From Agrobacterium rubi TR3 = NBRC 13261 (GTDB lineage Bacteria; Pseudomonadota; Alphaproteobacteria; Rhizobiales; Rhizobiaceae): a stretch of DNA of 64,000 bases. The first letter of the stretch is position 1. Each line of letters starts with the position of its first letter. The translations under genes were made by a program, and so were the position numbers. This document shows positions 11,281-45,116 of this stretch, one piece after another. The stretch lies in assembly GCF_000739935.1 (NCBI RefSeq), contig NZ_BBJU01000016.1, positions 1-64,000 on the forward strand, given 5' to 3'. The notes under the pieces are model-generated. The model was not told the DNA's origin. It worked only from the letters and a program-made list of their open reading frames with translations, and made no database searches.

Positions 11281-11285
11281 TATGT

Positions 11286-11480: not shown

Positions 11481-11492
11481 AGACCTTGAATG

Positions 11493-11524
11493 AAGGCGTT
11501 CCCTCTGCACGGGACAACGCCTTT
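11493..11524. terminator. Possible bidirectional terminator hairpin
   Basis: AAGGCGTT-CCC pairs with GGGACAACGCCTT (8 bp, a two-base bulge, then 3 bp). It lies between two convergent small genes. The T run is short on both sides, so termination strength is uncertain. Confidence 0.45.
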
Positions 11525-11542
11525 CCAGCCTGAAGACTGCGC

Positions 11543-11779
11543 TTAGAACGCCGTGAATGTCAGCGTCGTCAAAGACCGCACAATGCCTGGAATATTGACG
11601 ATGTTTTCGTTGATAAATTTGCCGACATCTTCCTCCGGCGACAGATAAATCTTCAAGAGAAGATCATACTCCCCACTCGTGGAATAAAGCTCGGAAACCA
11701 GTTCCGTTTTATAAATGGCATCGGCAACGTCGTATGTCTTGCCGGGCGTGCATTGAAGCTGAACAAAAATGGGCTTCAT
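11543..11779 (-). CDS. Stand-alone Lrp/AsnC ligand-binding (RAM) domain protein
   Basis: 78 residues that match only the C-terminal RAM domain of Lrp/AsnC regulators: MKPIFVQLQCTPGKTYDVAD, then VSELYSTSGEYDLLLKIYL and INENIVNIPGIVRSLTTLTF. The DNA-binding helix-turn-helix is absent and no frame upstream supplies it, so this is the demi-Lrp type, which binds small molecules or hetero-oligomerises with full-length Lrp proteins. The divergent neighbour is a FAD amine/amino-acid oxidase, which makes an amino-acid ligand plausible (inference). The 267 bases between the two genes should carry both promoters; I see no clear operator there. Confidence 0.85.
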   Translation of the reverse strand: MKPIFVQLQCTPGKTYDVADAIYKTELVSELYSTSGEYDLLLKIYLSPEEDVGKFINENIVNIPGIVRSLTTLTFTAF

Positions 11780-12046
11780 GATCTTTTTCCCGTCACGAAT
11801 TGAGATAAGCGCAACTGGCAGACCGCCCTTGCGCGTCGTGCCGCACTATTGTCCCAGCCGCGCGCGTGTTTCAAGCCTGTTTGCATATCTTAGGTGTGAC
11901 GCCACATTCCGGTCAGGCATGACATGATGACGATATGTCGGTATTCTCCCGCGCAAGGCAGGACTAAGCTGCCCGCATTATGCGTGACGGACATCGGCTC
12001 GGCCGACAGACGGCGCACATGCCCTCCGCATCCTTGGGTGATCTCG

Positions 12047-19462: not shown

Positions 19463-21486
<2,024 letters not shown>

Positions 21487-21585
21487 GGTGAATGTCTCAA
21501 TCAGAAACCCGACGAAGAAATTTGTCAAGCGATCTGTGAAGACTGTTGAAAAACAGAAAATTACGCTAAGTTAACCCATCCATTT

Positions 21586-21618: not shown

Positions 21619-21661
21619 GAGTGCGTTATGATGGCGAGCTATGAAGGGGAGAGTACCTGAG

Positions 21662-21913
21662 ATGAATTCAACTATTCGTGAAATACTATCGAAATTCGGC
21701 CAACTCCCAGTGCCGGTCGATACAATAGCTGACGACGCTGATCTTTATGCTGCGGGCCTTTCTTCTTTCGCATCCGTGCAACTGATGCTTGGCATTGAAG
21801 ATGCATTCGATATCGAATTTCCAGACAGCATGCTGAACCGTAAGTCCTTCGCCAGCATCAAGGCCATCGAAGACACGGTCAAAACCATTCTCGATGGCAA
21901 AGAGGCCGCTTGA
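21662..21913 (+). CDS. Acyl-carrier-like protein, acceptor for aminoacyl group
   Basis: 83 residues, acidic four-helix carrier protein. The phosphopantetheine site is AAGLSSFASVQ with Ser35 as the probable modified residue (Ser replaces the usual Asp before it). EDAFDIEFPDSML is a typical helix III region. ATG 21662 is chosen because GGGGAGAG at 21646-21653 is spaced 8 bases; ATG 21641 is in frame but overlaps that SD. It is the first gene of the cluster and overlaps the next start by one base. In the published family the ligase two genes downstream loads a small amino acid such as glycine or alanine on such a carrier protein; here that pairing is inferred from gene order and residue conservation. 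It is not the fatty-acid AcpP, which has a DSL site. Confidence 0.9.
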   Translation: MNSTIREILSKFGQLPVPVDTIADDADLYAAGLSSFASVQLMLGIEDAFDIEFPDSMLNRKSFASIKAIEDTVKTILDGKEAA

Positions 21914-23094
21914 TGAACCTGTCGGTCACCCCGCCTGATGCAACGCTGATCGCGCGCGCCTCACGTGTCGCGGCTATCGCTGCACGGCATGCCGACGATG
22001 TTGATGCCGCTGCACGTTTTCCCACTGAGGCCATCGATGCCCTGCGTGCTGAACGTCTCTTGGGAATACAGGTGCCTATTCACCTTGGTGGCGAGAGTGC
22101 CAGCATCGCCCAGATTGCGGATATTTGCTGCGTTCTTGGCCAATCCTGTTCCGCAACCGCGATGATTTTCGCCATGCACCACATCAAGGCCTCCAGCCTG
22201 GTGGAACATGGCGAAGACAGCGAATGGCACACCGGTTTCATGCGCCGCGTAGCGTCCGAGCAGTTGCTTCTGGCGTCTGCCACCACCGAAGGCGGCATTG
22301 GCGGAAACATGCGCAATTCCATCTGCGCTATCGAGGTCGATGGTCCCGATTGCGCGTTGGAAAAAGACGCGACCGTCATTTCCTACGGCATGCACGCCGA
22401 TGCCATTCTCATCACCTCGCGTGCCAATGCAGCAGCGGCGCCCGCCGATCAGGTGATGACCGTTTTCCTGAAAGACCAGTACACGCTCGAACGGACCCAT
22501 ATCTGGAACACGCTCGGCATGCGCGGCACCTGTTCCGATGGCTTCCTGTTCAAGGGAGCGGCTCCCTCCGAGCAGATATTCTCCAAGCCTTTTGCCGAAA
22601 TCGCAGCACAATCCATGCTGGCGACATCCCATCTTTTGTGGAGCGGCGTGTGGTACGGCATTGCATCTGACGCGGTCTTGCGGGCACAAGCCTTCGTTCG
22701 TGCGGCCGCCCGAAAATCGCCCGGCGTTACACCGCCCGGTGCCATCCGTCTGGCTGAAGTGTCGAGCAAGCTGCAGATCGTCAAATCGAATATCATTGCC
22801 GGTCTCAAAGCCTATGAGGGCACCAAGTCAGATCCCGACAAGCTGATGTCGATGGGCTTTGCCATCGCCATGAACAACGTTAAGATTTGCTCCTCGGAAA
22901 CCATTCTCGAGATCATCAATCATGCCATGCTGATCTGCGGCATCATGGGCTACAAAAATGGGACGCCCTACAGCCTAGGGCGCCACCTGCGCGATGCGCA
23001 TTCGGCGCAACTGATGATTTCCAACGACAGAATTTTAAGCAACTCCGCCAATCTCCTGCTCGTCCAGAAGCAGGACACCAGCCTTTCGGGATAA
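21913..23094 (+). CDS. Acyl-CoA-dehydrogenase-like flavoprotein
   Basis: 393 residues with the acyl-CoA dehydrogenase fold: N-terminal helices ([20 protein letters not shown]), the FAD-side segment [15 protein letters not shown] and the middle beta-domain [16 protein letters not shown]. The C-terminal helical half has [20 protein letters not shown] in the place of the canonical catalytic-Glu region. Start ATG 21913 overlaps the carrier-protein stop by one base (TGATG); a TTG lies one codon before. Homologues that act on carrier-protein-bound aminoacyl groups exist in natural-product pathways (e.g. prolyl-carrier-protein dehydrogenases), so oxidation of the aminoacyl-S-carrier is a reasonable inference; no experiment on this gene is known to me. 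Confidence 0.85.
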
Positions 23095-23098
23095 GACC

Positions 23099-24007
23099 AT
23101 GGACACGCAAACATCTTTTCTCGATCGCCTGTTTGACAAGGGCCTGCTGATCGATACCGGCGTGGATGGCCTTTATGGCCGGAGCGGCCAGTTCGAAGAC
23201 GTGATTGCCGGTTTTGAACGCCTGATTGGCACGGTTGGCGGTGGCGACAAGGCCGAAGTCATCCGCTTCCCCCCCGGCATCAACCGCGCCTATTTCGAAA
23301 AAAGCGGCTACATGAAAAGCTTCCCGCAACTGGCCGGCACCGTCCATTCCTTTTGCGGATGCGAGCTGGATCATGTGAGCCTGATCAAGAGTATGGATGA
23401 AGGCACCGACTGGACGAAGGACCAGAAGATCACCGACATCGTGCTGACGCCTGCAGCCTGCTACCCGCTGTATCCAACCATCGCCAAGCGCGGAAACCTG
23501 CCGGGAAATGGCGGTCTCTACGATATTCAATCCTATTGCTTCCGCCATGAGCCGTCGAAGGACCCGGCGCGTCAGCAGCTGTTCCGCATGCGCGAATATG
23601 TGCGCATGGGCACGGAAAGTGACGTTACGGAATTCCGTCAGCTGTGGATGGATCGGGGCGTCGAGATGATGGAAAAGATCGGTCTCGATGTGAAACTCGA
23701 TATCGCCAACGACCCGTTCTTCGGGCGTGCTGGCAAGATGCTGGCCAACAACCAGCGCGACCAGAACCTGAAATTCGAGCTGCTGATTCCGGTCACGTCC
23801 ACGACCAACCAGACAGCCTGCATGAGCTTCAACTACCATCAGGATGCATTCGGCGCGAAATGGGGCCTCAACCTCGAAAATGGCGACGTTGCACACACCG
23901 CCTGCGTCGGCTTCGGTCTAGAACGCATCGCGCTGGCGCTGTTTGCCAAACATGGACTGGATGTCGAGGCATGGCCGCAGCCGGTGCGGGACGCGCTGTG
24001 GGGCTGA
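23099..24007 (+). CDS. Amino acid--[acyl-carrier-protein] ligase
   Basis: 302 residues, a truncated homologue of the atypical class II seryl-tRNA synthetase core of methanogens, without the tRNA-binding domain. Family members from Bradyrhizobium and Agrobacterium activate a small amino acid with ATP and transfer it to the phosphopantetheine arm of a carrier protein instead of to tRNA. Motif 2 is [19 protein letters not shown] with R149, motif 3 is [12 protein letters not shown] with R276. The zinc ligands expected for the family are present as C121, E166 and C269. It begins 4 bases after the flavoprotein stop, in the same operon as its presumed carrier protein. Confidence 0.93.
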
Positions 24008-24014
24008 TGACGGC

Positions 24015-25001
24015 ATGACGAGCATTTTTCCTGCCCTGAACGCTGAAACCTATGTTCCACATTCGCTCCATTCGCTCGAGCGGATGTGGCCGGAAACCAA
24101 TTGCTATGTCGATCTGTGGATTGAACTTCTCGCCGCAAGCGGCCTGCCGCCTGAAGCTATGCTCGGCTTTACGCTGACCCAGGATTTCGAAGGCGATCAG
24201 TTCACCTTTTTCAAGGTGCCGCTAGAAGACCTCGAGACGCTCTACGGCATCCGCGTCACCGAACTGGCGATTTTCGACCGGTTGGAAAACCATATCCAAA
24301 CGCAGTTGCAGCGTGGGCGCATCTGCCTGATCGAGATGGACAGTTTTTACATGCCGGATACGCAGGGTACAGCGTACCGCAAGGAACACGGCAAAACGAC
24401 CGTCGCCATCAACCGAATGGATGTCGAAAATCGCAGGCTGGAATATTTCCACAATGGCGGTTACTTCGCGCTAGATGGAGACGATTTCTCAGGCATCTTC
24501 CAGCACCATCTGACCGATGATGATCTTCCCTTTCTGCCCTATACCGAGTTTGCGAAATTTCCTGAAAAAGCTGTTGGCGAAACGGAAAGACGAAGAGCGG
24601 CAGAACGGCTTCTGGTTCAACACTTTGCAAGACGCCCGACGCACAATCCGATCCGAGCATTCGCCGAGGTCTTTCCTGCACAGGTCGAGAAGGTCGCCGA
24701 CCGGCCCTTCGGCTTTTTCCACAAATATGCCTTCAACACGCTTCGCCAATTCGGGGCCAATTTTGAACTGGCCGCCAGCCATCTGGAGTGGCTGGACGGC
24801 GAAAAACGCTTCGGCCAGGCATCCGTGCACGCGCTTCGTATTTCGGAGGTGGCGAAATCCGTGCAGTTTCAGCTTGCCCGGGCCATCGCACGCCGCAAGT
24901 TCGAACCGCTCGCCACCGCGCTTGACCCAGCCATCTCTGCCTGGGACGAGATGATGGCGGAACTTAACAACAGGCTCAGCAAAACAAGCGAGGCAGCGTG
25001 A
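24015..25001 (+). CDS. DUF1839-family protein
   Basis: 328-residue soluble protein recognisable as DUF1839, a family that co-occurs with the aminoacyl-carrier-protein ligase; its function is unknown. Features: NCYVDLWIELLAASG and AMLGFTLTQDFEGDQFTFFK near the N-terminus, a middle part with LIEMDSFYMPDTQGTAYRKE and VAINRMDVENRRLEYFHNGG, and a helical C-terminus. The early Asn-Cys-Tyr triad and the later conserved Asp/His residues recall papain-like or butirosin BtrH-type transferases, which would suit an acyl/aminoacyl transferase that unloads the carrier protein; this is a guess from motif order only. I start at ATG 24015, 7 bases after the ligase stop. Its stop overlaps the GTG of the GH2-like gene. 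Confidence 0.8.
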   Translation: MTSIFPALNAETYVPHSLHSLERMWPETNCYVDLWIELLAASGLPPEAMLGFTLTQDFEGDQFTFFKVPLEDLETLYGIRVTELAIFDRLENHIQTQLQRGRICLIEMDSFYMPDTQGTAYRKEHGKTTVAINRMDVENRRLEYFHNGGYFALDGDDFSGIFQHHLTDDDLPFLPYTEFAKFPEKAVGETERRRAAERLLVQHFARRPTHNPIRAFAEVFPAQVEKVADRPFGFFHKYAFNTLRQFGANFELAASHLEWLDGEKRFGQASVHALRISEVAKSVQFQLARAIARRKFEPLATALDPAISAWDEMMAELNNRLSKTSEAA

Positions 25002-27469
25002 CGGCCCCATCCGTTTTCCCCGCAACGGATGGCCAAATGTTGAGCGAGGGATGGACCTTAACGCTGACGGAGCCTGATGCCTATCAGACACCGGTCGCCA
25101 TTCCCGTCGAGGCCGAGGCGGTGACGTCCCCTGTTCCCGGCACCGTCGCGCAGGCGCTGGAAGTGCTGGGAAAATTTGATCGCCTTCACCCTAAACCCTT
25201 GAATATCTACGACGCCTGGTATCGACTGACGCTGATCTCGGATAGCGTCGGACCTGCCACGCTGCGCTTCGAGGGACTAGCGACAATCGTGGACATTTTC
25301 CTCAATGGCGAACGCGTTGCCCAGTCCACCAGCATGTTCGAAGCACTCGATATTCCATTTGAGCTAACCGGCGCTGACGAACTCGCCATCTGTTTTCGCG
25401 CGCTGGCACCGCGGTTAGAAAAGCCCGGCCCTCGCGCCCGTTGGCGCCCGCAGATGATGAATTCGCAAGGGCTGCGGCTGATCAGGACGACGGCTCTCGG
25501 CCACATGCCTGGCTGGTGCCCGGAAATCCACGCCGTTGGTCCATGGCGCCCTGTCCGCCTGATCCGTGACAACGAGCGCGCCTTCGACGTGCTGTCGTCT
25601 CGATCAGAACTGGATACGGACGGAACGGGAGTGCTGCATTTCTCTGCACGCGTCCAACGTGAGGCCTCGACAATCGAGATCATGTGCGCAGGTCGTTCCG
25701 CCAGACTCGAACCTAGAGGTGACGGCGTCTTCGAGGGCGCATTGCGACTGGACACCATCGAACCATGGTGGCCCGCAACGCATGGCAAGCCCAGCCTTCA
25801 TGATGTCAGCCTTCGTATCGATGGACGAACATATCATCTTGGCAAAACAGGCTTTCGTCGCATCGAGATAGACCACGGTACAGATGGCAAGGGCTTCGGG
25901 GTAACGATCAACGGCGAGCCGATTTTCTGCCGGGGTGCCGTCTGGACGAATGCCGATATCGTGCGACTGCCCGGCGCCAGAGCGGATTACGAGCCCTGTC
26001 TGCGCCTTGCCGCTGAAGCCGGTATGAACATGATCCGCATCGGCGGCACGATGACATACGAGACGCCGGACTTCTTCGCGCTGTGTGACGAATTGGGGCT
26101 TATGGTCTGGCAAGACATGATGCTAGCCAATTTCGATTACCCGGCTAAGGATGAAGCCTTCCTCGCCCATATCGAAACGGAAATCTCGCAACTTCTCATG
26201 AACACCGCCCTTTCTCCCTCGCTGACCGTGCTGTGCGGCGGTAGCGAAATGTATCAGCAGGGTGCGATGCTGGGATTGTCGGAACAGTTTTGGAAGGGTT
26301 CGCTGACGGAAGAAATTTTGCCCGCTCATATCAGGCGTTTGCGGCCAGACATCGCCTATGTGCCCAACTCTCCCTTCGGTGGCGCTTTGCCGTTTTTCCC
26401 GAACGAAAAGGTTGGCCATTACTATGGCGTCGGTGCCTATTGCCGACCGCTGGAGGATGCGCGGCGTGCCGACGTTCGCTTCGCAGCCGAATGCCTCGCC
26501 TTCGCGAACGTCCCGCAACAGCGAACGCTCGACAAGCACTTGCCGGCAAAGCCGGTTCACGACCCGCAGTGGAAAGCGCGTGTGCCGAGAGACCGCGGCG
26601 CGTCTTGGGATTTCGAGGACATCCGAGATCATTATCTCAAGCTGCTCTACGATATCGACCCATCCACCTTGCGCCGCGAAGATGGCGAACGCTATCTCGA
26701 TTTATCCCGCGCTGTTACAGCTGAGGTGATGGAAGCGACATTCGCGGAATGGCGGCGGGCGGGCTCATCCTGCCAGGGCGCATTGGTCTGGACCTTGCAG
26801 GATTTTCTGCCAGGTCCCGGCTGGGGCGTGATTGACGCGACTGGCGAACCGAAGGCGGCGTGGTACGGCCTGAAACGCGCCTTTCGCCCATTGCACATCA
26901 ACCTTCTGGACGAGGGCACGAATGGGCTCGATATTCACCTCATCAACGAAACACTCGATATGCATGATGTTGTGGTGGAAATCACATGCCTGCGCGATGG
27001 TCTTCAGCCCGTCGTCACCGGCAAACGTGCGTTGAGCCTTGCGTCCCGCCAAAAGCAGGTCATCGCTGCAACCGACCTGTTCGGTGCTTTCTTCGACACG
27101 ACCTACGCCTATCGTTTCGGCCCTCCGTCCCATAATGTCACCGTAGCAAGGTTGATTGACGCCGACACAGGCGCGCTGATCGCCACTGCTTTTCATTTTC
27201 CGCGGGGGCGGCAGGTGGCGATGCATGCTGCAACTCTGCGGACCGAAGTGAACCTCGAAAACGAAAATTGGATTTTGCAGGTAACCGCAGACCGTTTCGC
27301 CCAATCGGTTCATATCGATGCCGAAGGCTTCCGCCCATCGGATGACTGGTTTCATCTGGCGCCGGGTGAGGCTCGTACCGTTGAACTGCGACCGATCGGC
27401 CCGCACAATTCACAGGCGCCAAACGGCGAAATTCGCACGCTTGGCAGCAACCAAGTCTTTCGTTTCTAA
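24998..27469 (+). CDS. Glycoside hydrolase family 2-like protein (beta-mannosidase-like)
   Basis: 823 residues with GH2 architecture: N-terminal sugar-binding jelly roll (about 1-190, with RFEGLATIVDIFLNGE), an immunoglobulin-like domain (190-290), a TIM barrel (290-640, GFGVTINGEPIFCRGAVWTN and ETPDFFALCDELGLMVWQD) and C-terminal beta domains. The acid/base is probably E417 in CGGSEMYQ, where GH2 enzymes normally have G-N-E or N-N-E. The nucleophile candidate is E499 in AAECLAFANVP. No signal peptide is visible, so it would act in the cytoplasm. GTG start overlapping the DUF1839 stop (GTGA) shows tight coupling to an aminoacyl-carrier pathway, an odd place for a catabolic mannosidase. It could act on an aminoacylated glycoside or have a non-hydrolytic role. 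Confidence 0.85.
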   Translation: MTAPSVFPATDGQMLSEGWTLTLTEPDAYQTPVAIPVEAEAVTSPVPGTVAQALEVLGKFDRLHPKPLNIYDAWYRLTLISDSVGPATLRFEGLATIVDIFLNGERVAQSTSMFEALDIPFELTGADELAICFRALAPRLEKPGPRARWRPQMMNSQGLRLIRTTALGHMPGWCPEIHAVGPWRPVRLIRDNERAFDVLSSRSELDTDGTGVLHFSARVQREASTIEIMCAGRSARLEPRGDGVFEGALRLDTIEPWWPATHGKPSLHDVSLRIDGRTYHLGKTGFRRIEIDHGTDGKGFGVTINGEPIFCRGAVWTNADIVRLPGARADYEPCLRLAAEAGMNMIRIGGTMTYETPDFFALCDELGLMVWQDMMLANFDYPAKDEAFLAHIETEISQLLMNTALSPSLTVLCGGSEMYQQGAMLGLSEQFWKGSLTEEILPAHIRRLRPDIAYVPNSPFGGALPFFPNEKVGHYYGVGAYCRPLEDARRADVRFAAECLAFANVPQQRTLDKHLPAKPVHDPQWKARVPRDRGASWDFEDIRDHYLKLLYDIDPSTLRREDGERYLDLSRAVTAEVMEATFAEWRRAGSSCQGALVWTLQDFLPGPGWGVIDATGEPKAAWYGLKRAFRPLHINLLDEGTNGLDIHLINETLDMHDVVVEITCLRDGLQPVVTGKRALSLASRQKQVIAATDLFGAFFDTTYAYRFGPPSHNVTVARLIDADTGALIATAFHFPRGRQVAMHAATLRTEVNLENENWILQVTADRFAQSVHIDAEGFRPSDDWFHLAPGEARTVELRPIGPHNSQAPNGEIRTLGSNQVFRF

Positions 27470-27781: not shown

Positions 27782-30499
27782 ATGGAAAAAAGTTTAACTC
27801 GCTATATCTGGAATCATACCCGACGCCAGCAGGTGTTCATTCTGCTGATCGTCGCCCTATCAATGATACCGTATTTCCTTGCCTTCGATCTTCCCAAGCA
27901 GATCGTCAACGGCCCCATCCAAGGGGATGGGTTCGAAGGCGTGAACTCTACCCAACTTTTCATGCATTTGACGTTGGATCTTCCCTACATGGGAACGATC
28001 ACATTATTTCCGGGTATCGAGCTGACTCGATTTGGCATGTTGATGGGTCTGAGCCTGACCTTCCTGGCGCTCGTCATCATCAACGGCCTCTTCAAATATT
28101 ACATCAACACCTACAAAGGTCGGCTGGGCGAACGTTTGCTGCGTCGCATCCGCTTCCAGTTGATTGACCGCATCCTGCTGTTTCCCCCCTCCCACTTCAA
28201 GCGGGTAAAAGGTGCGGAAATCTCCAGCATGATCAAGGATGAAGTGGAACCGCTGGGTGGCTTTACCGGCGATGCCTTCGTGCAGCCTGCCCTTCTCGGC
28301 GGACAGGCGCTGTCCGCGCTCTTCTTCATTCTCGTGCAGAATTTCTGGCTGGGCCTGATTGCAGCCTTCATGGCTGCGATTCAGGTTGGCATCATCCCCC
28401 AGATGCGCCGCCGCCTGATCGAACTTGGCAGACAGCGCCAGCTCAGCGCACGACAGCTCGCTGGCCGTATCGGTGAAATGGTCGATGGTATCGGCACGAT
28501 CCACGCCTATGATACCTCCAATTACGAGCGTGCGGATGCAGCCCACCGGCTCGGCGAAATCTTCAAGATTCGCTACGATCTCTACCAGTGGAAATTTATC
28601 GTCAAATTCATCAATAATTTTCTGGCGCAGCTGACACCATTCTTCTTTTACTCGCTGGGCGGTTACCTGACGCTGAGAGGCAGTCTCGACGTCGGTCAGC
28701 TCGTGGCGGTCATCAACGCTTACAAGGAACTACCCGGCCCATTGAAGGAACTGATCGATTGGGATCAGGCGCGTCAGGACGTTCAGGTCAAATATGAACA
28801 GGTGTTCGAGCAGTTCGATTCACCCTTGATGATCGACGCCAAAATCCAGGCGCTGTCTCCGGAAGCAGCCGCTGCCATCACAGGACCGATCGTCATCGCC
28901 GGGCTGTCGCTGGATGACGATAGCGGCACACGTCTTCTCGATCAGGCGTCGCTGACCATCCATCCGGGAGAAACCATCGGCATCGTCGGCACGGCAGGCG
29001 CGGAGGCACTGGCCGATGCACTGGGCAGAACGCTGTGGCCAACCTCGGGCAAGATCACCTTCGGCGATACAGATCTGCATGAATTGCCAGAATCCGTCAC
29101 CGGCCGCCGCATCTCTTATGTATCCGCCGACACCTACTTCTTCCACGCCAGCCTGAAGGAAAACCTCGTTTACGGTCTCAAACATGCACCGTTAAAGCCG
29201 AAGGAATACAATGGTGCGGACCTCGAGCACCGGAAATGGGAAATTCGAGAGGCAAAGCTGGCCGAAAACCCCGATATCGATATCAACAGCGACTGGATCG
29301 ATTATGCATCCAGCCCGGCGGGGAGCGACGAGGAAGAGCAGTTCCTCAAATCGATGCTGGCGGTTCTCGATACGGTGCAGCTATCGCCCGACGTGCTCGA
29401 ATTCGCCCTGCGTTCGTCCATCGATCCGCTCACCGACCTGCATCTGGCCGCTCGGATCGTGGAACTGCGTCAGGCTCTGCGCACGGAACTGGAACAGGCA
29501 AATCTCAGCGGACTGATCGTGCCGTTCGAGCCCGATAGCTACAACGCCGAGGCTACGGTTGGCGAAAACATCATGTTCGGCACCATGCGGGATTCCTCGA
29601 CCGGAAGCCGCAAGATCATCGATAGCGACTATTTCCGCTCTCTGATGCGCGGCAGCGGCCTGTCCGACACCCTGTTCGACATGGGCTATACGATCGCCGA
29701 AAACGTCGTTGAAATCTTCAGCGATCTTGCGCCGGATCACCCGTTCTTCCAGCAGCTCACCTTCATGACGGCAGACGATATTCCAGGCTATCAGCAGATG
29801 TTGCAGCGCCTGCAGGGCAAGGGCTACAAGGATGCGACCGAGGCCGAAAAGCGCGCCATGCTGCGGCTCAGCTTCTTCTACATCGAACCACGACAGCGCT
29901 TCGGCCTTCTGACACAGGAAGTGATGGACAAGATCGTCGAGGTCCGCCACATGTTCCACGAGAAGCTGCCGGACGACTTGCGCAGCTGGATCGAGCCCTA
30001 CGACCCTGAACGATACGGCACGTCTGCCAGCCTTCTGGATAATATTCTGTTCGGCAAGATCAGCCATCGTTATCCCGACGCATCGCGGCGCATCACCAAG
30101 ATCGTTGCCGATGCCATGAAGAAACAGGGACTGTACGACAAGGTTCTGGCTGTTGGTCTGGAATTCAATCTGGGCGCGGGCGGCAAGCGGCTGGGGCCAT
30201 TGCAGCGGCAGAAGCTCAATCTGGCACGCGCGCTGATCAGAAAGTCGGACTATTACGTTCTGAACCGCCCGCTTCCTGGCCTCGATCACCGGATGCAACA
30301 GGAAATCGTCGACAACGTCATTTCCTTCCTCAGAAACGATGGCGCCAATCCGGCCGTGTTGTGGGTGCTTTCCAACCCCTCACTTTCAAAAATGTTCGAC
30401 CGTGTTATCGTCATCAACCATGGGTCGATCGTGGCTGACGGTCCCTATGAGACTCTTCTCGAAGAAAACGATACATTCAAGGAAATGATCGCAGCCTGA
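27782..30499 (+). CDS. ABC exporter-like protein with degenerate nucleotide-binding domain
   Basis: 905 residues: a six-helix ABC-exporter membrane domain (about 1-340; TMs near 18-38, 85-105, 170-205, 275-310) and a nucleotide-binding-like domain interrupted by a ~290-residue insert. Every ATPase motif is altered. Walker A (402-409) reads VGTAGAEA with no GKS/T. The Q-loop glutamine is missing in YVSADTYFF (446-454). The signature is LGPLQRQKLNLARAL (804-818) instead of LSGGQ. Walker B is YYVLNRPLPGLD (824-835) with no DE pair, and the H-loop histidine is absent (WVLSNPS). The segment after the Q-loop occurs three times: KENLVYG (459-465), GENIMFG (594-600), DNILFGK (753-759). ATP hydrolysis by this chain alone is unlikely. 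First gene of a run with a cyclic-nucleotide-binding protein, an MBL-fold protein and an adenylate cyclase. Confidence 0.85.
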   Translation: MEKSLTRYIWNHTRRQQVFILLIVALSMIPYFLAFDLPKQIVNGPIQGDGFEGVNSTQLFMHLTLDLPYMGTITLFPGIELTRFGMLMGLSLTFLALVIINGLFKYYINTYKGRLGERLLRRIRFQLIDRILLFPPSHFKRVKGAEISSMIKDEVEPLGGFTGDAFVQPALLGGQALSALFFILVQNFWLGLIAAFMAAIQVGIIPQMRRRLIELGRQRQLSARQLAGRIGEMVDGIGTIHAYDTSNYERADAAHRLGEIFKIRYDLYQWKFIVKFINNFLAQLTPFFFYSLGGYLTLRGSLDVGQLVAVINAYKELPGPLKELIDWDQARQDVQVKYEQVFEQFDSPLMIDAKIQALSPEAAAAITGPIVIAGLSLDDDSGTRLLDQASLTIHPGETIGIVGTAGAEALADALGRTLWPTSGKITFGDTDLHELPESVTGRRISYVSADTYFFHASLKENLVYGLKHAPLKPKEYNGADLEHRKWEIREAKLAENPDIDINSDWIDYASSPAGSDEEEQFLKSMLAVLDTVQLSPDVLEFALRSSIDPLTDLHLAARIVELRQALRTELEQANLSGLIVPFEPDSYNAEATVGENIMFGTMRDSSTGSRKIIDSDYFRSLMRGSGLSDTLFDMGYTIAENVVEIFSDLAPDHPFFQQLTFMTADDIPGYQQMLQRLQGKGYKDATEAEKRAMLRLSFFYIEPRQRFGLLTQEVMDKIVEVRHMFHEKLPDDLRSWIEPYDPERYGTSASLLDNILFGKISHRYPDASRRITKIVADAMKKQGLYDKVLAVGLEFNLGAGGKRLGPLQRQKLNLARALIRKSDYYVLNRPLPGLDHRMQQEIVDNVISFLRNDGANPAVLWVLSNPSLSKMFDRVIVINHGSIVADGPYETLLEENDTFKEMIAA

Positions 30500-30537
30500 G
30501 AGGTGAGCGATAAACAGGAACCGCACAGGACGAAGCG

Positions 30538-30993
30538 ATGCTTTTCAAAGACGAAATTCAGATGCTCAAACGCGTTCCATTCTTTAGCCAGATGGAACCC
30601 TCCAAGCTGAAGCTGTTGGCATTCGCATCTGACAGGGTTTCCTATCATGCCGGCGACGAATTGTTTCGCCAGGGCGATATCGGCGATGCGGCTTACGTGC
30701 TGCTGACGGGCAAGGTCGATGTCCTCATCGATTCACCCTCCGGGCAGATCAAGCTGACCGAAATGAGCGGAAACGCGATTGTCGGCGAAATCGCCATTCT
30801 GTGCGACAGTGTCAGAACGGCGACGGTGCAAGCCTCCACATCTGTGGAAGCATTGCGCATCGGCAAGGAGCAATTCTTCAAGCTGATGTCCGATTTTCCA
30901 GACATCACCATCAAGGTCATGCGCGTTCTTGCTGAACGTCTGACGCAAACCACGACAGAGCTGAGCAAAGCGCGGTCGGGTTCGAGTGCTTAG
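30538..30993 (+). CDS. Cyclic-nucleotide-binding domain protein
   Basis: 151 residues, a single CRP-type cyclic-nucleotide-binding domain with no DNA-binding helix-turn-helix. The phosphate-binding cassette is complete: VGEIAILCDSVRTATVQA, with the Glu that binds ribose and the Arg that binds the cyclic phosphate. N-terminal FKDEIQMLKRVPFFSQM is a helix typical of these modules; a C-terminal helix ends the protein. It begins 39 bases after the pseudo-ABC gene, so it is probably cotranscribed and a likely effector of the cyclase encoded three genes on. cAMP as ligand is inference. Confidence 0.9.
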   Translation: MLFKDEIQMLKRVPFFSQMEPSKLKLLAFASDRVSYHAGDELFRQGDIGDAAYVLLTGKVDVLIDSPSGQIKLTEMSGNAIVGEIAILCDSVRTATVQASTSVEALRIGKEQFFKLMSDFPDITIKVMRVLAERLTQTTTELSKARSGSSA

Positions 30994-31041
30994 ACGCAAC
31001 AGCGTTCTTGACAGCCGCTTTCAAAAAGAAAAATAAAAGTG

Positions 31042-31102
31042 GTACTATTGTCATAAAACTGAAATGTTGAGCGTACTATTGGCGGAGACATAAATTGTCT
31101 CC
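31042..31102. promoter_or_regulatory. Direct and inverted repeats upstream of the MBL-fold gene
   Basis: The nine bases GTACTATTG occur at 31042-31050 and again at 31073-31081, 31 bases apart (about three helical turns). Immediately after lies the inverted repeat GGAGACA-N5-TGTCTCC (31084-31102). A TTGACA at 31008-31013 could be a -35 element, but its matching -10 is poor. The arrangement suggests a regulated promoter internal to the cluster. Confidence 0.4.
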
Positions 31103-31186
31103 CGGAAAGTTGGGGCTAAGACAAGAGAGATACACGGGCGCCCATGGGAGGAAGCTTGGGATGTTCGTGGTAAATTGGGGTGCATC

Positions 31187-32047
31187 ATGGCGTTGAATTC
31201 CGACGATCATCGTCGGGACAATAAACAGGAATTTCGCGTTAAGATCTGGGGAGCACGAGGAACGCTTCCCGTTTCAGGAGAAAAATTCCGTAAGTATGGC
31301 GGCAACACGATCTGCATCGAGGTCAGGTGCGGAAGCCATGTCTTGCTGTTCGATGCAGGATCTGGACTGCTGCCAGCCGGCCAAGCGCTGAAGGCGGAAG
31401 GCATCGGCGACGTCAATATGTTCTTTTCCCACTGTCACTACGATCACATCATCGGCTTTCCCTATTTCAAACCGTTCTTCAATCGCGAGAACGACGTGCG
31501 TATCTGGTCCGGGCATCTGGCAGGGCAAAAGACCACACACGAAATAATCGCCGAGTTCATGAGCCCACCATGGTTTCCTGTGCCGCTTGACGTGTGCTGC
31601 GCGCAGATCGTTACCAAGGATTTCAAAGCCGGGGACGTTCTTGACGTCCATCCAGACCTCAACATCACCACCGATATGCTCAACCACCCCGGAAACGCCA
31701 TCGGCTACCGGATCGACTGGCAGGGCCGCAGCCTTGCCATCATCACGGATACGGAACACGAAACCGGCAAGCTGGATAAATCGGTTCTGAAGCTCATCGA
31801 TAATGTGGACCTGTTCCTCTACGATGCAAGTTTTACCGAAGCGGAGATGAACACCTACCGGGGCTATGGCCACTCCTCATGGCAGCAGGCCGTTCTGCTG
31901 GCAAAGCATGCGAATGCCAAAAGTGTCGGTCTCATCCATCATGCACCGTTCCGCACCGATGACGAGCTTGAGGCGATCGAAGCGGATGCACAGAAAGAGT
32001 TCGCCGGTGTTTTTGCAGCCTGGGATGGCCAGACGATCGAACTTTAG
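31187..32047 (+). CDS. Metallo-beta-lactamase-fold hydrolase
   Basis: 286 residues of the MBL fold, with the metal-binding motif SHCHYDHIIGF (H-x-H-x-D-H), FDAGSGLLPAG on the first strand pair, AIITDTEHE carrying the bridging Asp, and GLIHHAPF supplying the last His. The N-terminal KIWGARGTLPVSGEKFRKYG matches the subgroup related to RNase Z/phosphonate- and cyclic-nucleotide-phosphodiesterase-like proteins. No signal peptide, so cytoplasmic. Between a cNMP-binding protein and an adenylate cyclase, a phosphodiesterase that ends the signal is a reasonable hypothesis. Start ATG 31187 (MALNSDDHRR) is preferred to TTG 31175. Confidence 0.88.
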   Translation: MALNSDDHRRDNKQEFRVKIWGARGTLPVSGEKFRKYGGNTICIEVRCGSHVLLFDAGSGLLPAGQALKAEGIGDVNMFFSHCHYDHIIGFPYFKPFFNRENDVRIWSGHLAGQKTTHEIIAEFMSPPWFPVPLDVCCAQIVTKDFKAGDVLDVHPDLNITTDMLNHPGNAIGYRIDWQGRSLAIITDTEHETGKLDKSVLKLIDNVDLFLYDASFTEAEMNTYRGYGHSSWQQAVLLAKHANAKSVGLIHHAPFRTDDELEAIEADAQKEFAGVFAAWDGQTIEL

Positions 32048-32206
32048 CCATGCGATGTTGGCTCTCAGACAATGCCGATGACGTGATCGTTGAACTCTTC
32101 TGGTTCTTCGAGCATTGACGTATAGCAATGAACGGCTATCAACAGGGATGTCTCCCCTGGCAATGTGCCGTACTGCGATGACACACGGCAATTGGAGACG
32201 TAAAGC

Positions 32207-33865
32207 ATGGCCAACATCATGTCGGAGACGTCGCTCAGACGTGCACGATTGTTGTCCGGCCTCGTCATGCTTCTCTTCGTCTTCAGCCATATGGTCAACC
32301 ACGCGCTGGCGCTGGTGTCGCTGGAGACAGCCGAATACGGCCGAAAATGGTTCAGCCTTATCTGGCTCAACCCCGTCAGCAGCGTCATCTTTTACGGCTC
32401 GGTCCTCACCCACATCATATTGGTCCTGCGCTCCATCTATATGCGCCGCTCTTTGAAAATGCCCGCGCGCGAAGCGCTGCAGATCATCATCGGGCTGCTC
32501 ATCCCCTATATGATCATCGATCATGCCAGTGGCATTCGCCTGTCGCGGATGCTCTACGATATCGACATCGGTTACGACATCATCATCAACAATTTCTGGA
32601 TCCGCAGGCCGATGCTGGGTCTGCGGCAGAGCACCGTTCTGGTGCTGATATGGACGCATGGATGCCTCGGCGTCTTCTATTGGCTGCGCTACCGCGACTG
32701 GTACAAGCGAATATCGCCCTATCTGCTGACGATTGCCGTGCTTCTACCAATCCTGGCGCTTCTCGGCTTTAGCGATGCGGGCCGGGCCATGGAGTATAAT
32801 CCGCCACCGCCCCGTGTTCCCCACGCCAATCAGGCCGAACTCGATGCTGTCATCGATGGCTTCACGGCAGGTGTGAAAACCCTGTTCGGCGGTGCCGTCG
32901 TGCTGGTCTTTGCACTTCGCGGCGTGCGTAGCTGGCGGCAGCGATCAAACGCATTCGAAATACGCTACGAGCATGGGGCACTCGTTCGGGCGTCGGCTGG
33001 GCTCAGCATATTGGAGGCCAGTCGATCAGGCGGCGTGTCTCACTTTTCAGCCTGCGGCGGCAGAGGTCGGTGCTCCACCTGCCGAGTGAGGGTCATCAGC
33101 ACGGACGGACCTTTGCCGGAACCATCCTCGATGGAACGCGCCACGCTTCAGCGTATCCATGCCGACTCGGATGTCAGGCTTGGATGCCAGCTTCGTCCCA
33201 AGCACAGCCTCAACGTGGCCTTGCTACTGGCCTCCAAACAACAAAGCGATATTCCAGCCAGCGGCGAGCCGATCCGTCCCGGTCGCGAGGAGGAAATCGC
33301 GGTGATGTTCTGCGATCTGCGCAACTTCACAGCTTTATCGGAGGCACGCCTGCCCTATGACATGGTGTTTCTGCTCAATCGCTACTTCACGGTTGTCGGC
33401 CAAGCCGTAGAGCAGGCCGGTGGCCGACTGGACAAATTCATCGGCGATGGTGCAATGGCGCTGTTTGGTCTGGATGGCAACAAGGAGACGGCAAGCCGCG
33501 ATGCCTTGAAGGCAGCAGCGCTTATCCTGCGCAATGTCGAAGCGTTGAACGAGGAGCTGGAAAAGCAGTTCGCGGTCAAGCTGCGCATCGTGGTCGGCAT
33601 CCACGCCGGACCATCCATCGTGGGTGTGATGGGGTATGGGGCTGCCAAGACGCTCACCGCCATCGGTGATACCGTCAATGTCGCCAGCAGGCTCGAAACG
33701 GCTGCCAAGGAGTTCGATACGGCAATCGTGATTTCGGAGCCGGTGTTGAAACAATCAGCGCATGACATCGGCACCTTGGAGAGCCGGACCATCCCGATCA
33801 GAGGCAAAAGCGCGCAGATGAAGGTTTTTCTGATTTCGGACGCGGAAAGTCAGCGCTTCGTCTAG
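32207..33865 (+). CDS. cyaC: Redox-type class III adenylate cyclase with diheme-like anchor and 2Fe-2S domain
   Basis: 552 residues in three parts. (1) A six-helix membrane anchor (about 12-240) with histidines H28, H32, H69, H106 and H151, resembling the tetra-His diheme-b anchor of succinate:quinone oxidoreductases. (2) A plant-type ferredoxin domain (about 250-345) with cluster cysteines C283, C289, C292 and C327. (3) A class III cyclase domain (about 362-545) with metal-binding D370 (VMFCDLRNFT) and D414 (DKFIGDGAMALF), and the transition-state motif GDTVNVASRLE (R495). The same organisation is described for Sinorhizobium meliloti CyaC, a quinone-responsive cyclase, hence the symbol. GGAG is 9 bases before ATG 32207. 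The 159 bases upstream may hold a separate promoter. Confidence 0.88.
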   Translation: MANIMSETSLRRARLLSGLVMLLFVFSHMVNHALALVSLETAEYGRKWFSLIWLNPVSSVIFYGSVLTHIILVLRSIYMRRSLKMPAREALQIIIGLLIPYMIIDHASGIRLSRMLYDIDIGYDIIINNFWIRRPMLGLRQSTVLVLIWTHGCLGVFYWLRYRDWYKRISPYLLTIAVLLPILALLGFSDAGRAMEYNPPPPRVPHANQAELDAVIDGFTAGVKTLFGGAVVLVFALRGVRSWRQRSNAFEIRYEHGALVRASAGLSILEASRSGGVSHFSACGGRGRCSTCRVRVISTDGPLPEPSSMERATLQRIHADSDVRLGCQLRPKHSLNVALLLASKQQSDIPASGEPIRPGREEEIAVMFCDLRNFTALSEARLPYDMVFLLNRYFTVVGQAVEQAGGRLDKFIGDGAMALFGLDGNKETASRDALKAAALILRNVEALNEELEKQFAVKLRIVVGIHAGPSIVGVMGYGAAKTLTAIGDTVNVASRLETAAKEFDTAIVISEPVLKQSAHDIGTLESRTIPIRGKSAQMKVFLISDAESQRFV

Positions 33866-34634: not shown

Positions 34635-35996
34635 TCAGGCTTTGATGATGTGGCTTGCGACGATACCGCGCTTGGCAAAGGCATTGCGCGTATCGATGAT
34701 CAGCGGCGACCATTCGCTCAGGCTTTGGTAATCGATCGTGTCGTGATCGGTCGCAACGAGTACCGCATCGAAACCGCTGATCGTCTGCTGGTCCCAGGCA
34801 ACGGATTTCATACCCAGGAGGTCGCTATATTCACGGGTTTTGGGGATTTCCGCGACGTAAGGATCGAAATAGGACGGCTGGCCGCTGCGCTCGATGATGA
34901 GTTCGATCAACTTCAGTGACGGGCTTTCGCGAATATCCGGCACGTTCTTCTTATAGGCCAAGCCGACGATCAGAACCTTGGAGCGGCTGAGCGCCTTGCC
35001 GCGGTGAATATCGAGCGCTTCGGCCAGACGGCTGACGATGTGGCGCGGCATGCCGGTGTTGATCTGCCCGGCAAGCTCGATAAAGCGCGTCGGCAAGTCA
35101 TACTCGCGCGACTTCCACGTCAGATAGAAAGGGTCGATGGGAATGCAGTGCCCACCAAGGCCGGGGCCAGGATAAAACGGCATATAGCCGAAGGGCTTGG
35201 TCTTGGCCGCATCGATGACCTCCCAGATGTCGATGCCCATCGCTTCGTAAACGACCTTCAATTCGTTGACGAGTGCGATGTTGACGGCACGAAACACGTT
35301 CTCGGTGATCTTCACCGCCTCTGCCGTAGCATTGGTGGAGACGGGAACCACGGTTTTGACGACGGAGCCATAAAAGGCCACCATCAGTTCCGCCGCATCG
35401 GCACCTTCACCGGAGACAACCTTGGGAATGGTCGAGGTCTGGAAATCGCGATTGCCGGGGTCTTCGCGTTCCGGCGAAAAACCCAAGAAAAAATCAACGC
35501 CGGATTTCAAACCCGTCTTTTCCAGAATGGTTTTGACGATGCCATCCGTGGTGCCGGGATAGGTGGTGGATTCCAACACGATCAGCTGGCCGGGGCGCAA
35601 TGTCTTGGCGATTTCCCGGCAGGTATTTTCGACATAGGACAGGTCGGGATCGCGGTACTTCGTCAATGGCGTCGGAACGCAGATGGCGATGACATCGCAA
35701 TCGGCAAGCTGGGCGAAATCGCAGGTCGCGACGAAGCCGCCATTTTCCCGCGCGCCGTTCAAAACATCGTGTGAGACGGCTTCGATATAGCTTTCACCGG
35801 CATCAATCGACGTGATCTTGGCCGGATCGATATCGAAACCGATAACATTGAAGCCGGAATGGGCAATCGTCATCGCCAGTGGCAAGCCGACGTAGCCGAG
35901 GCCGATAACCCCCGCTTTCGCCTTTTTTGACTGGATAGTTCCAAGAAGTTGCTGTGCGTTTGAAGAGGAAGTCAAAGCTGATTGCGCTCCGCGCAT
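34635..35996 (-). CDS. Nucleotide-sugar dehydrogenase (UDP-Glc/UDP-GlcNAc/GDP-Man DH family)
   Basis: 453 residues. N-terminal NAD site AGVIGLGYVGLPLAMTIAHS, central helix and FSPEREDPGNRDF, catalytic cysteine C284 in PGPGLGGHCIPIDPF, and the C-terminal domain with VLIVGLAYKKNVPDIRESPS. The C-terminal and catalytic blocks are closer to the WbpA/TviB/WecC group (UDP-N-acetylhexosamine dehydrogenases) than to Ugd, so the product is probably a uronic acid of an acetamido sugar for a surface polysaccharide. Divergent from the glycosyltransferase gene 104 bases away. No strong Shine-Dalgarno at ATG 35996. Confidence 0.92.
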   Translation of the reverse strand: MRGAQSALTSSSNAQQLLGTIQSKKAKAGVIGLGYVGLPLAMTIAHSGFNVIGFDIDPAKITSIDAGESYIEAVSHDVLNGARENGGFVATCDFAQLADCDVIAICVPTPLTKYRDPDLSYVENTCREIAKTLRPGQLIVLESTTYPGTTDGIVKTILEKTGLKSGVDFFLGFSPEREDPGNRDFQTSTIPKVVSGEGADAAELMVAFYGSVVKTVVPVSTNATAEAVKITENVFRAVNIALVNELKVVYEAMGIDIWEVIDAAKTKPFGYMPFYPGPGLGGHCIPIDPFYLTWKSREYDLPTRFIELAGQINTGMPRHIVSRLAEALDIHRGKALSRSKVLIVGLAYKKNVPDIRESPSLKLIELIIERSGQPSYFDPYVAEIPKTREYSDLLGMKSVAWDQQTISGFDAVLVATDHDTIDYQSLSEWSPLIIDTRNAFAKRGIVASHIIKA

Positions 35997-36100
35997 GGAA
36001 AAACATGCCCATCAGTTGGGCGAGAACAGGCACAGTGTCAAGGTTTGGCGCAGGCAAATTCCCATTGACGAAGTGCCTGACGGCAAAGCAGAACGGACCC

Positions 36101-37198
36101 ATGAAAATCGCATTCCATGCCCCGCTGAAATCGCCCAACCATCCCGTCCCCTCTGGCGACCGGTTGATGGCGCGGATGTTGATGCAGGCCATGCGCCTTT
36201 CCGGGCATGAGGTCGACGTGGTCTCTGAGCTTCGCAGTTTTCTGCGCGAGCCTGATGTCGAAGGCCTCGACACACTGAAGCGGACGGCCGAAGCGGAACG
36301 GGAGCGCATTGCCGCCACATGGGCAAAGGATGGCAAGCCGGACATCTGGTTTTGCTATCATCCCTATTACAAGGCGAGAGATTTTCTCGGACCCGAACTC
36401 TGCCAGCACTTTGGAATTGCCTACGTGACTGCGGAAGCATCCTATTCGCCTAAACGAAACGCGATGGGCTGGGCAGACATACAGGTGGCAATTCTGGCCG
36501 ATCTCCGTTTCGCCGCCGTCAACATCTGCTTTACCGAGCGCGACAGAATGGGACTTTCAAACGCTGACCCCAGCATCCGTCTCGCAAAGCTGCCGCCCTT
36601 TATCGACACCGCGACCTTCGCAAAAATCACTCCTGCTTCCACGCGCTATCGCTTAGCCACCGTTGCAATGATGCGTCCGGGCGACAAGGTGAGCAGTTAT
36701 CGGGCACTGGCAGAGGCGTTGAAGCTGGTGCCGAAGGAGCTGCCTTGGACATTGGAGATCATCGGAGACGGCCCCGAACGGAAGACTGTAGAGGGTCTCT
36801 TTGACGCCTTCGATTCAGACCGCATCATCTGGCATGGCGAACAACAGGCCGGCACCATTGCCGAAATCCTGTCACAGGCTTCACTCTATGTCTGGCCGGG
36901 ACACGGGGAGGCCTATGGATTGGCCTATCTGGAAGCGCAGGCGGCGGGTTTACCGGTGATTGCCGAGAGAATCGCAGGCGTGCCGGAGGTCATCAAAAAT
37001 GGTGAAACCGGAATTCTCACGGAACCCGGCAATATCAAAGCCTATGCTTATGCTTTGGTTAGATTGATGAGAAATGACGATCTGCGTCAGACGATGGCGC
37101 AGAAAGCTCGCCATTTCGCGACCGCCGAACGGTCCATCGAACACGCCGCCACCACATTGAACGACATCCTCGAAAACCTGCCGGAACGGACATCATGA
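36101..37198 (+). CDS. GT4-like glycosyltransferase
   Basis: 365 residues with a GT-B fold. C-terminal half has the nucleotide-sugar site: TLEIIGDGPERKTVEGL, then SLYVWPGHGEAYGLAYLEAQ and AGLPVIAERIAGVPEVIKNG, the E-x7-E type motif of GT4. The N-terminal MKIAFHAPLKSPNHPVPSGD is the usual acceptor-domain start; the open frame upstream of it is not conserved. Its stop overlaps the start of the deacetylase gene (ATGA), so the two probably modify the same glycan. Confidence 0.88.
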   Translation: MKIAFHAPLKSPNHPVPSGDRLMARMLMQAMRLSGHEVDVVSELRSFLREPDVEGLDTLKRTAEAERERIAATWAKDGKPDIWFCYHPYYKARDFLGPELCQHFGIAYVTAEASYSPKRNAMGWADIQVAILADLRFAAVNICFTERDRMGLSNADPSIRLAKLPPFIDTATFAKITPASTRYRLATVAMMRPGDKVSSYRALAEALKLVPKELPWTLEIIGDGPERKTVEGLFDAFDSDRIIWHGEQQAGTIAEILSQASLYVWPGHGEAYGLAYLEAQAAGLPVIAERIAGVPEVIKNGETGILTEPGNIKAYAYALVRLMRNDDLRQTMAQKARHFATAERSIEHAATTLNDILENLPERTS

Positions 37199-37938
37199 CC
37201 AAAAAACTGCTTCTGGACACGCTGGATGATTTTGCCAGCAAAAACAGCGTCGCGGATTTCTGGCTACGCGATGACGATGCCACGCAGCCAAGTTCTGCAT
37301 TGGATCGGTTGCTCGACCTGTCCGCGCGCTACACAGTGCCGATGACATTGGCGGTCATACCGGAACCAACCGGAGACGCGCTGGCAAAGCGGCTCGAGAC
37401 AACGAGCGGCATCGATGTTGCAATACACGGCTGGGCGCATCGAAACCACGCGAGGCCGGAGGAAAAGAAACGCGAACTCGGCCTTCACAGACCCTTGGAA
37501 ACCGTGCTGGATGAGTTGAAATCAGGACTGACCAAACTCCAATCGCTACACGGCCCCCGTTTCGTTCCGATGCTCGTACCGCCCTGGAACAGGATCGATC
37601 AAACCGTTATCGAGCATTTGCCGCAGGCCGGTTATCGGGCCTTGTCGGTCTTCGGCCCCGAAAAGCCGGATGCCCTCCCACTTCTCAACACCCATGTCGA
37701 TGTCATCGACTGGCGCGGCACCCGTGGTGGCAAGAACCATGACCTGCTGTTTGCCGAGACAGCAGAACGCTTAGGACAGGCCGATGAAACGGGCGGCATG
37801 GCGGGTATCCTCACCCACCATCTTGATCACGACGAAAGCGTTTGGGCTTTTCTGCAGTCGCTCTTCGACCTCACGACCAATCACCCCGCGTGCCGCTGGC
37901 GCTCCTCACGCCAATGGCTTGAACATACGTCACCATGA
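37195..37938 (+). CDS. Polysaccharide deacetylase-like protein
   Basis: 247 residues, NodB-related deacetylase fold: ADFWLRDDDATQ carries the metal/catalytic Asp, VAIHGWAHRNH the metal histidines, and MLVPPWNRID the second conserved block. No signal peptide, so probably cytoplasmic. Translationally coupled to the glycosyltransferase by ATGA. Its 3' end overlaps the convergent GT32-like gene by 9 bases. Substrate unknown; an N-acetylated sugar in a glycan intermediate is likely. Confidence 0.85.
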   Translation: MTKKLLLDTLDDFASKNSVADFWLRDDDATQPSSALDRLLDLSARYTVPMTLAVIPEPTGDALAKRLETTSGIDVAIHGWAHRNHARPEEKKRELGLHRPLETVLDELKSGLTKLQSLHGPRFVPMLVPPWNRIDQTVIEHLPQAGYRALSVFGPEKPDALPLLNTHVDVIDWRGTRGGKNHDLLFAETAERLGQADETGGMAGILTHHLDHDESVWAFLQSLFDLTTNHPACRWRSSRQWLEHTSP

Positions 37939-42874: not shown

Positions 42875-42875
42875 C

Positions 42876-45046: not shown

Positions 45047-45116
45047 CCACGGACCGTCCAGTGACCCATCGACCCAACCCGACCAGCCATGCGACACTGG
45101 ACAAGAGGTGCCCGCT

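Follow-up and report, generated by a model that had tools for sequence, protein, structure and literature searches.

What an amino acid is turned into after its loading onto a carrier protein is the question raised by a five-gene cassette of Agrobacterium rubi TR3, which lies at 21662-27469 of the stretch of DNA analysed here (contig NZ_BBJU01000016.1, positions 1 to 64,000; this whole stretch of 64,000 nucleotides is called the window). The cassette encodes a carrier protein (CP), an acyl-CoA-dehydrogenase-fold flavoprotein (ACAD), an amino acid:[carrier protein] ligase (LIG), a DUF1839 protein, and a glycosidase of family GH2. A sequence-only reading of the window had proposed one pathway, in which the amino acid is loaded, oxidized to a dehydro- or iminoacyl form, and transferred by DUF1839, with a sugar conjugate as substrate or product of the GH2 protein. 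The present analysis makes it moderately probable that the cassette makes an aminoacyl-modified amino sugar, which is most likely placed on surface polysaccharide.

The DUF1839 protein (24015-25001, + strand; PF08893, 443.8 bits against a cut-off of 22.5) is a putative carrier-dependent aminoacyltransferase. Foldseek matched its AlphaFold2 (AF2) model (pLDDT 87.8, 15 sequences) to AziU3, CtaG, and CcbD in the PDB. The top match by VIA-align is CcbD, with Z 18.9, a root-mean-square deviation (rmsd) of 3.6, 289 of 327 residues, and 12% identity, followed by AziU3 at Z 18.2 and CtaG at Z 16.6. The first row beyond the carrier-dependent enzymes is a designed protein at Z 8.5 that aligns to the helical part. 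In the predicted model, the papain-like fold and the helical C-terminal part are covered over the whole length. The relation to CcbD is seen in predicted structure and there only, because the profile search by sequence finds none: the DUF1839 profile gave one row against PDB sequences, at E 0.39, and CcbD, AziU3, and CtaG were not found. CcbD and LmbD are described in passages of a report on them as joining carrier-bound proline to an amino sugar via a Cys thioester, in a Cys ping-pong mechanism (PMC12945683). The transfer step proposed for DUF1839 is thus supported, since the predicted fold matches that of a carrier-dependent enzyme acting from amino acid to amino sugar.

In 114 aligned DUF1839 rows, some of which are the same protein twice, Cys29, the putative nucleophile at the N-terminal helix, is conserved in 111, Thr127 in 111, His145 in 114, and His124 in 113 (residues are counted from the one after the initial Met). 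A 2023 survey, in the passages concerned, describes DUF1839 as papain-like with a Cys-(Thr/Ser)-His site and suggests cell-wall glycan processing (PMC10318531). The three rows without the Cys represent two proteins, from locus L047 (the same protein as in L078) and locus L048. Both Cys-less copies, at L047 1492-2445 and L048 1504-2445, adjoin the ligase. The genomes of L047 and L048 also carry a second, Cys-bearing DUF1839 copy near exopolysaccharide genes, and it is possible that the two kinds of copy form a pseudoenzyme pair.

The GH2 protein (24998-27469, + strand), recognized by its Pfam family match and its active-site residues, has beta-mannosidases as its closest solved relatives. Both catalytic Glu residues (E417 and E498) are present in all 96 aligned GH2 proteins, and the acid/base motif is Ser-Glu (S416-E417) instead of NE in 95 of them. 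Gly349 stands where the alignment has Trp in the mannosidases; this position holds Gly in 84 of the 96 proteins, Ser in 8, and Pro in 4. No signal peptide is seen by eye. As given in parts of a 2025 family division, SE in place of NE and Gly near C2 instead of His/Trp are marks of GH2_14; two GH2_14 members are slow on pNP-beta-galactoside and inactive on mannobiose and mannotriose, and the pocket is thought to accommodate substituted sugars (PMC12243196). Judged by its active-site residues, the cassette GH2 can be classed as GH2_14-like. An N-acylated sugar would fit as its substrate, which is agreement and not proof. The sugar partner expected for GH2 in the sequence-only reading finds support.

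The constancy of the gene set can be read from a phylum sample of 398 genomes, drawn evenly, and from a set of 99 DUF1839-bearing loci, made up of the window, 80 named loci, and 18 others that form a non-Rhizobiaceae set. DUF1839 is present in 16 of the 398 genomes. All 16 have the ligase above cut-off, and CP, flavoprotein, and GH2 stand in the same order around DUF1839 in each (by tblastn of the flanks; nine also in longer stretches); in genome G256 the ligase match is interrupted by one stop near its end. The cassette-type GH2 (E <= 1e-218) occurs in exactly these 16 genomes, and weaker GH2 matches (E >= 1e-51) in 17 further ones. This constant co-occurrence of the five genes supports the idea of one pathway. 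The ligase is found above cut-off in 28 of the 398 genomes in total, and a further 16 have weak matches only, under the cut-off. Twelve of the 28 ligase genomes lack DUF1839; the cassette GH2 is present in none of these 12, with its recovery from the 16 DUF1839 genomes as positive control, and the flavoprotein adjoins the ligase in all 12. Because these genomes without DUF1839 and cassette GH2 all keep the flavoprotein, ligase and flavoprotein are the core and DUF1839-GH2 is a module. A survey of the ligase homologues, which the sequence-only reading had put forward as its check, is thus mixed: the flavoprotein is a constant neighbour, whereas DUF1839 and the cassette GH2 are not.

Among the 99 loci, the order CP-ACAD-LIG-DUF-GH2 on one strand was found by script in 91, and CP and ACAD overlap in 76 of these. 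Five of the remaining eight are complete on inspection: in L182 and L079 the script had picked a second DUF1839 copy, and in L102, L106, and L108 it had left CP unplaced, which tblastn finds. L087 is a second DUF1839 copy away from the cassette of the same genome, and L136 and L145 are cassettes cut by contig ends. The cassette is therefore complete in 96 of the 99 loci, the exceptions being the two contig-cut loci and the one separate second copy. Frames of 667-704 amino acids that appeared to fuse ACAD and ligase were dropped as candidates, as tblastn shows two separate adjoining frames in these GC-rich loci. The ligase is present in all 37 sampled genomes of the window's genus, its own genome included (in two pieces in G029). 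DUF1839 also occurs on 59 plasmid records from nine genera, with the full cassette in all eight records looked at, and the cassette is found in Rhizobium, Azospirillum, and Burkholderia relatives as well. The named loci nearest to the window cassette are those of Agrobacterium rosae and its relatives.

A sixth gene appears to belong to the same system as the cassette. In Azospirillum and Mycetohabitans, a gene for an 'alpha/beta fold hydrolase' lies directly 3' of GH2, and its product consists of two alpha/beta hydrolase domains. Across an alignment of 63 copies, from which one truncated copy was dropped, the second domain has GxCxG in all 63 and keeps an Asp and a His in at least 95%; in 4 of the copies, the elbow residue of the first domain is Ser. 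The two halves are related to TIGR03100 and TIGR03101 at 68-98 bits in the four copies scanned, under the cut-offs of 168 and 203 (the hydrolase of L119, for example, has 93 and 68 bits). At E <= 1e-30, the hydrolase is found in 17 of the 398 genomes, that is, in all 16 with DUF1839 and in one (G380) of the 382 others. Within the window's family it is present in 7 of 7 DUF1839 genomes compared to 0 of 10 without DUF1839. The family of G380 is taken as Burkholderiaceae; among 150 of its genomes, the hydrolase is present in 58 of 59 DUF1839 genomes compared to 5 of 91 others; at least four of these DUF1839 genomes are also among the 398. A distance of 2.5-20 kb separates the hydrolase and DUF1839 in 13 of the 16 genomes, where 0.18 would be expected within 25 kb; in G000, G166, and G250 the hydrolase is on another contig. 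In the window's genome, it shares its locus with four genes for glycosyltransferases, one TupA-like gene, and one gene that resembles a flippase but scores under the cut-off.

The enzymes that load the carrier swap beside this hydrolase. An adenylation protein, a carrier protein, and the hydrolase stand in a row in G380, G565, and G469; G380 has neither a DUF1839 nor a ligase match, and its adenylation protein scores 346 bits with TIGR01733 (cut-off 317). In G464, the flavoprotein, ligase, and hydrolase genes are consecutive; this genome has no DUF1839, and there is no GH2 within the 18 kb examined. G517, also without DUF1839, has the ligase and hydrolase amid glycosyltransferase, flippase, and Wzc genes, and G493 has a ligase-hydrolase pair beside ManC, away from its DUF1839. 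Judging by these exchanges, it is carrier-bound amino acids that the hydrolase seems to accompany, irrespective of the loading enzyme. Locus L188 (10513-14305) encodes, within an exopolysaccharide cluster, an adenylation protein, a carrier, and a tandem hydrolase of the Cys type. This minimal module lacks the SerRS-like ligase.

The surroundings of the cassette are in several lineages those of surface glycan synthesis. Rhizobium johnstonii has a hydrolase-flippase fusion directly after the cassette, flanked by a glycosyltransferase gene before and a glycosyltransferase-like gene (by eye) after. With three Rhizobium queries, a flippase homologue together with at least one of the two Rhizobium neighbours is found in 37 of the 80 named loci. 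In the Burkholderiaceae-like genomes examined (this name, like Bradyrhizobium-like, is inferred from similarity), the neighbours of these genes encode Wzc kinase, ManC, flippase, and glycosyltransferases. At least 8 of the 16 genomes have a PF00534 glycosyltransferase no farther than 20 kb from DUF1839, where at most 2.5 are expected (P 0.001; the P values for co-occurrence and proximity treat genomes as independent and are hence too small). Exopolysaccharide markers, sought with eight queries, are found in 13 of the 80 named and 7 of the 18 other DUF1839 loci, and in 1 of 10 loci without DUF1839. The sequence-only reading was right about its five genes; the sixth gene and the exopolysaccharide surroundings had escaped it.

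The ligase (23099-24007, + strand; NF005479, 506.8 bits against a cut-off of 357) is a class II protein resembling seryl-tRNA synthetase (SerRS). Its nearest structures are of the Bll0957 type, 4h2w at E 1e-94 and 3mey at E 1e-89, and homologues of this ligase are described, in the part of the source concerned, as charging a carrier protein and not tRNA (PMC9437257). The zinc set C121/E166/C269 and the residues R149 and R276, already noticed in the window, do not vary among the 21 ligases aligned. CP (21662-21913, + strand; NF005480, 127.3 bits against a cut-off of 72; PF00550, E 9e-9) has its predicted phosphopantetheine residue, Ser35, in an LSS motif, as had been read; its family model NF005480 begins at codon 8 of a longer open reading frame at 21641-21913. 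In Bradyrhizobium-like loci, an unassigned gene for about 300 amino acids lies directly 3' of the ligase (L090 10910-11785, + strand; L096 9021-9959, - strand). Its product looks GNAT-like by eye, with no Pfam match and one PDB row at E 0.64. In L095, a locus without DUF1839, a gene for a Cys/Met-metabolism pyridoxal phosphate enzyme (10704-12014) is found in the same position.

The flavoprotein (21913-23094, + strand; PF02771 and PF00441 above cut-off) has as its best solved sequence matches 3m9v/4kcf, titled 'FAD-dependent oxidoreductase', at E 1e-12, and then DnmZ at E 5e-11. We take both to be nitrososynthases, that is, N-oxygenating flavoproteins, with 3m9v/4kcf presumably being KijD3. 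Ordinary acyl-CoA dehydrogenases match from E 1e-10, a small margin behind. Its AF2 model (pLDDT 89.4, 17 sequences) has the acyl-CoA dehydrogenase fold; the fold was dropped as a discriminator between dehydrogenase and monooxygenase, as both kinds interleave at Z 37.8-40.5. Among the fold matches is ColB1, which according to its structure title acts on carrier-bound cysteine. At the two positions where acyl-CoA dehydrogenases have their catalytic Glu (that of MCAD/SCAD or that of IVD), the flavoprotein has Ile369 and Ser239, as placed by eye in a family alignment. Because the catalytic Glu is missing by eye at both positions, plain desaturation is doubtful, and the oxidation to a dehydro- or iminoacyl form stays a proposal. 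Oxygenation is preferred to desaturation, with odds barely above even. The substrate is presumably the aminoacyl carrier protein.

The five open reading frames of the cassette are all on the + strand of the window, with the tight packing described in the sequence-only reading. The flavoprotein ATG and the CP stop have one base in common, and the DUF1839 stop and the GH2 GTG start overlap by four bases; these overlaps suggest a single transcript. A scan for promoter- or terminator-like sites around the cassette gave nothing above shuffles. The Pfam scores of the flavoprotein and GH2 are weaker than those of CP, ligase, and DUF1839. On the upstream side, thiC is divergent from the cassette and has a thiamine pyrophosphate (TPP) riboswitch upstream of it at 21385-21496 (- strand, 75 bits). 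Downstream, the block at 27782-33865 contains a 905-amino-acid ABC exporter with two nucleotide-binding regions, a cyclic nucleotide monophosphate (cNMP)-binding protein, a metallo-beta-lactamase-fold protein, and an adenylate cyclase with a 2Fe-2S ferredoxin domain. These transporter, cNMP, metallo-hydrolase, and cyclase genes were dropped as members of the system, as they follow the cassette in 22 of the 80 named loci, all of Agrobacterium type. Farther on, at 34638-48762 (7-21 kb downstream), a nucleotide-sugar dehydrogenase, several glycosyltransferases, and a polysaccharide deacetylase are encoded.

A route of four steps can be proposed for the cassette. The ligase would adenylate a small amino acid and load it onto CP, as reported for its homologues. 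The flavoprotein would then oxidize or hydroxylate the carrier-bound aminoacyl group. Judging from its fold and Cys29, DUF1839 would take the acyl group on this Cys and pass it to a sugar amino group, in the manner of CcbD and LmbD, and GH2 may remove or transfer a sugar that is beta-linked in the substrate or product. Delivery to the polysaccharide, of either the acyl group or the decorated unit, is probably the task of the tandem hydrolase, which may itself be the transferase where DUF1839 is absent. A fuller version, which is tentative and which we would sooner doubt than accept, is that all six proteins decorate an exopolysaccharide with a flavin-modified amino acid by means of two unrelated Cys acyltransferases, DUF1839 with Cys-Thr-His and the hydrolase with GxCxG. 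If true, Dlt and Alm would be joined by another way of aminoacylating surface polymers, one in which the activating enzyme, SerRS-like or an adenylation domain, can be exchanged.

Besides the inflated P values, several findings weigh against an aminoacyl-modified amino sugar on surface polysaccharide. The Cys-His-Glu triad of CcbD does not seem to be present as such in DUF1839, whose site is described as Cys-(Thr/Ser)-His (PMC10318531). Twelve ligase genomes have no DUF1839, cassette GH2, or tandem hydrolase, and G568 has DUF1839 with no hydrolase match. In the window's own genome, the hydrolase is on a separate contig (G000:C28:27934-29592), and the nearest glycosyltransferase gene in the window starts 8.5 kb past the cassette. 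With the eight queries, no exopolysaccharide marker is found in 67 of the 80 named and 11 of the 18 other DUF1839 loci, and the Rhizobium queries still find none in 43 of the 80. A surface location can also be set against a diffusible small molecule, an aminoacyl amino sugar of lincosamide type that a nearby transporter would export and GH2 would unmask or recycle. This is unlikely. In its favour, CcbD, AziU3, and CtaG, the nearest folds, stem from small-molecule pathways, DUF1839 is found on the 59 plasmid records, and ABC exporters are encoded nearby: one type comes after the cassette in the 22 named loci of Agrobacterium type, and another is encoded on the upstream side in Azospirillum B510, with counterparts at ~30% identity in 11 named loci. 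However, these are distinct kinds of exporter and each is missing from part of the loci, in contrast to the hydrolase in 16 of 16 genomes, and a ligase in 37 of 37 genus genomes would be unusual for an accessory metabolite.

The division of labour between the two candidate Cys enzymes could also be reversed, with the alpha/beta hydrolase as the acyltransferase and DUF1839 as a scaffold or proofreading partner. The two ligase-adjoining DUF1839 proteins without Cys, the GxCxG motif in 63 of 63 hydrolases, and the place of the hydrolase beside carrier-loading enzymes without DUF1839 in G380 and G464 agree with such a reversal. We hold it quite improbable, as both Cys-less proteins occur in genomes with a Cys-bearing copy and Cys29 is kept in every other row. 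Salvage or editing, in which GH2 and DUF1839 (as a hydrolase) would degrade an aminoacyl glycoside or clear mischarged carrier, would accord with GH2 enzymes being hydrolases and with the papain-like character given for DUF1839 in parts of the 2023 survey (PMC10318531). An ATP-dependent ligase and a carrier would be needless for breakdown, however, and the best fold matches of DUF1839 are condensing enzymes, which leaves this explanation very little probability. The synthesis of an aminoacyl-modified amino sugar for the cell surface remains the reading that we prefer.

Among known systems, CcbD and LmbD (with AziU3 and CtaG, and BtrH by description) resemble DUF1839 in the whole-protein predicted fold, the Cys near the N-terminus, and the carrier partner, and the acceptor of CcbD is an amino sugar, as proposed for DUF1839. 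They differ in the ~12% identity and in having Cys-His-Glu in contrast to the described Cys-(Thr/Ser)-His, and the lincosamide route activates with an adenylation domain (A-domain), whereas the cassette uses a SerRS-like ligase. The Bradyrhizobium amino acid:[carrier protein] ligase Bll0957 belongs to the same ligase family and has the same residues as the cassette ligase. The Bradyrhizobium- and Methylobacterium-like ligase loci have the flavoprotein (12 of 12) but no DUF1839, cassette GH2, or hydrolase, and tblastn finds a carrier protein in 3 of 9 of them. Dlt, with D-Ala, and AlmEFG, with Gly, combine an amino acid, a carrier protein, and transfer to a surface sugar polymer. Compared to these, the transferase of the cassette would be papain-like or an alpha/beta hydrolase (MBOAT- and AlmG-like proteins were not sought), and the activating enzyme of G380 resembles DltA at 277 bits, under the DltA cut-off. 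The exosortase-A-associated hydrolases TIGR03100 and TIGR03101 are relatives of the hydrolase halves, and the sixth protein differs from them by the Cys nucleophile in its second half.

The sequence-only reading treated the steps after loading as without known function, whereas a hypothesis for them already existed in a 2010 note in proof. Its passages describe a StRS-based pathway with Atu2574 as example, in which ligase, acyl carrier protein (ACP), redox enzyme, uncharacterised protein, and glycosidase have liposaccharide genes nearby, and predict an amide to a cell-surface amino sugar and aminoacyl monooxygenation (PMC2922099). That prediction rests on gene neighbourhoods, and these passages give no fold for the uncharacterised protein, no tandem hydrolase, and no counts (PMC2922099). 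No experimental test of the pathway was found in a literature search with thin coverage of subscription papers. The CcbD-like fold and the sixth gene turn the 2010 prediction into a direct in vitro test, and the answer would bear on the cell surface of plant- and soil-associated bacteria, because the ligase is in every sampled genome of the genus and the cassette extends to Rhizobium, Azospirillum, and Burkholderia relatives. The present reading agrees with the 2010 prediction, and the system is a conserved and specialised one whose outline was foreseen; new here are the CcbD-type fold, the co-occurrence counts, the sixth gene, the exopolysaccharide detail, and the gene swaps.

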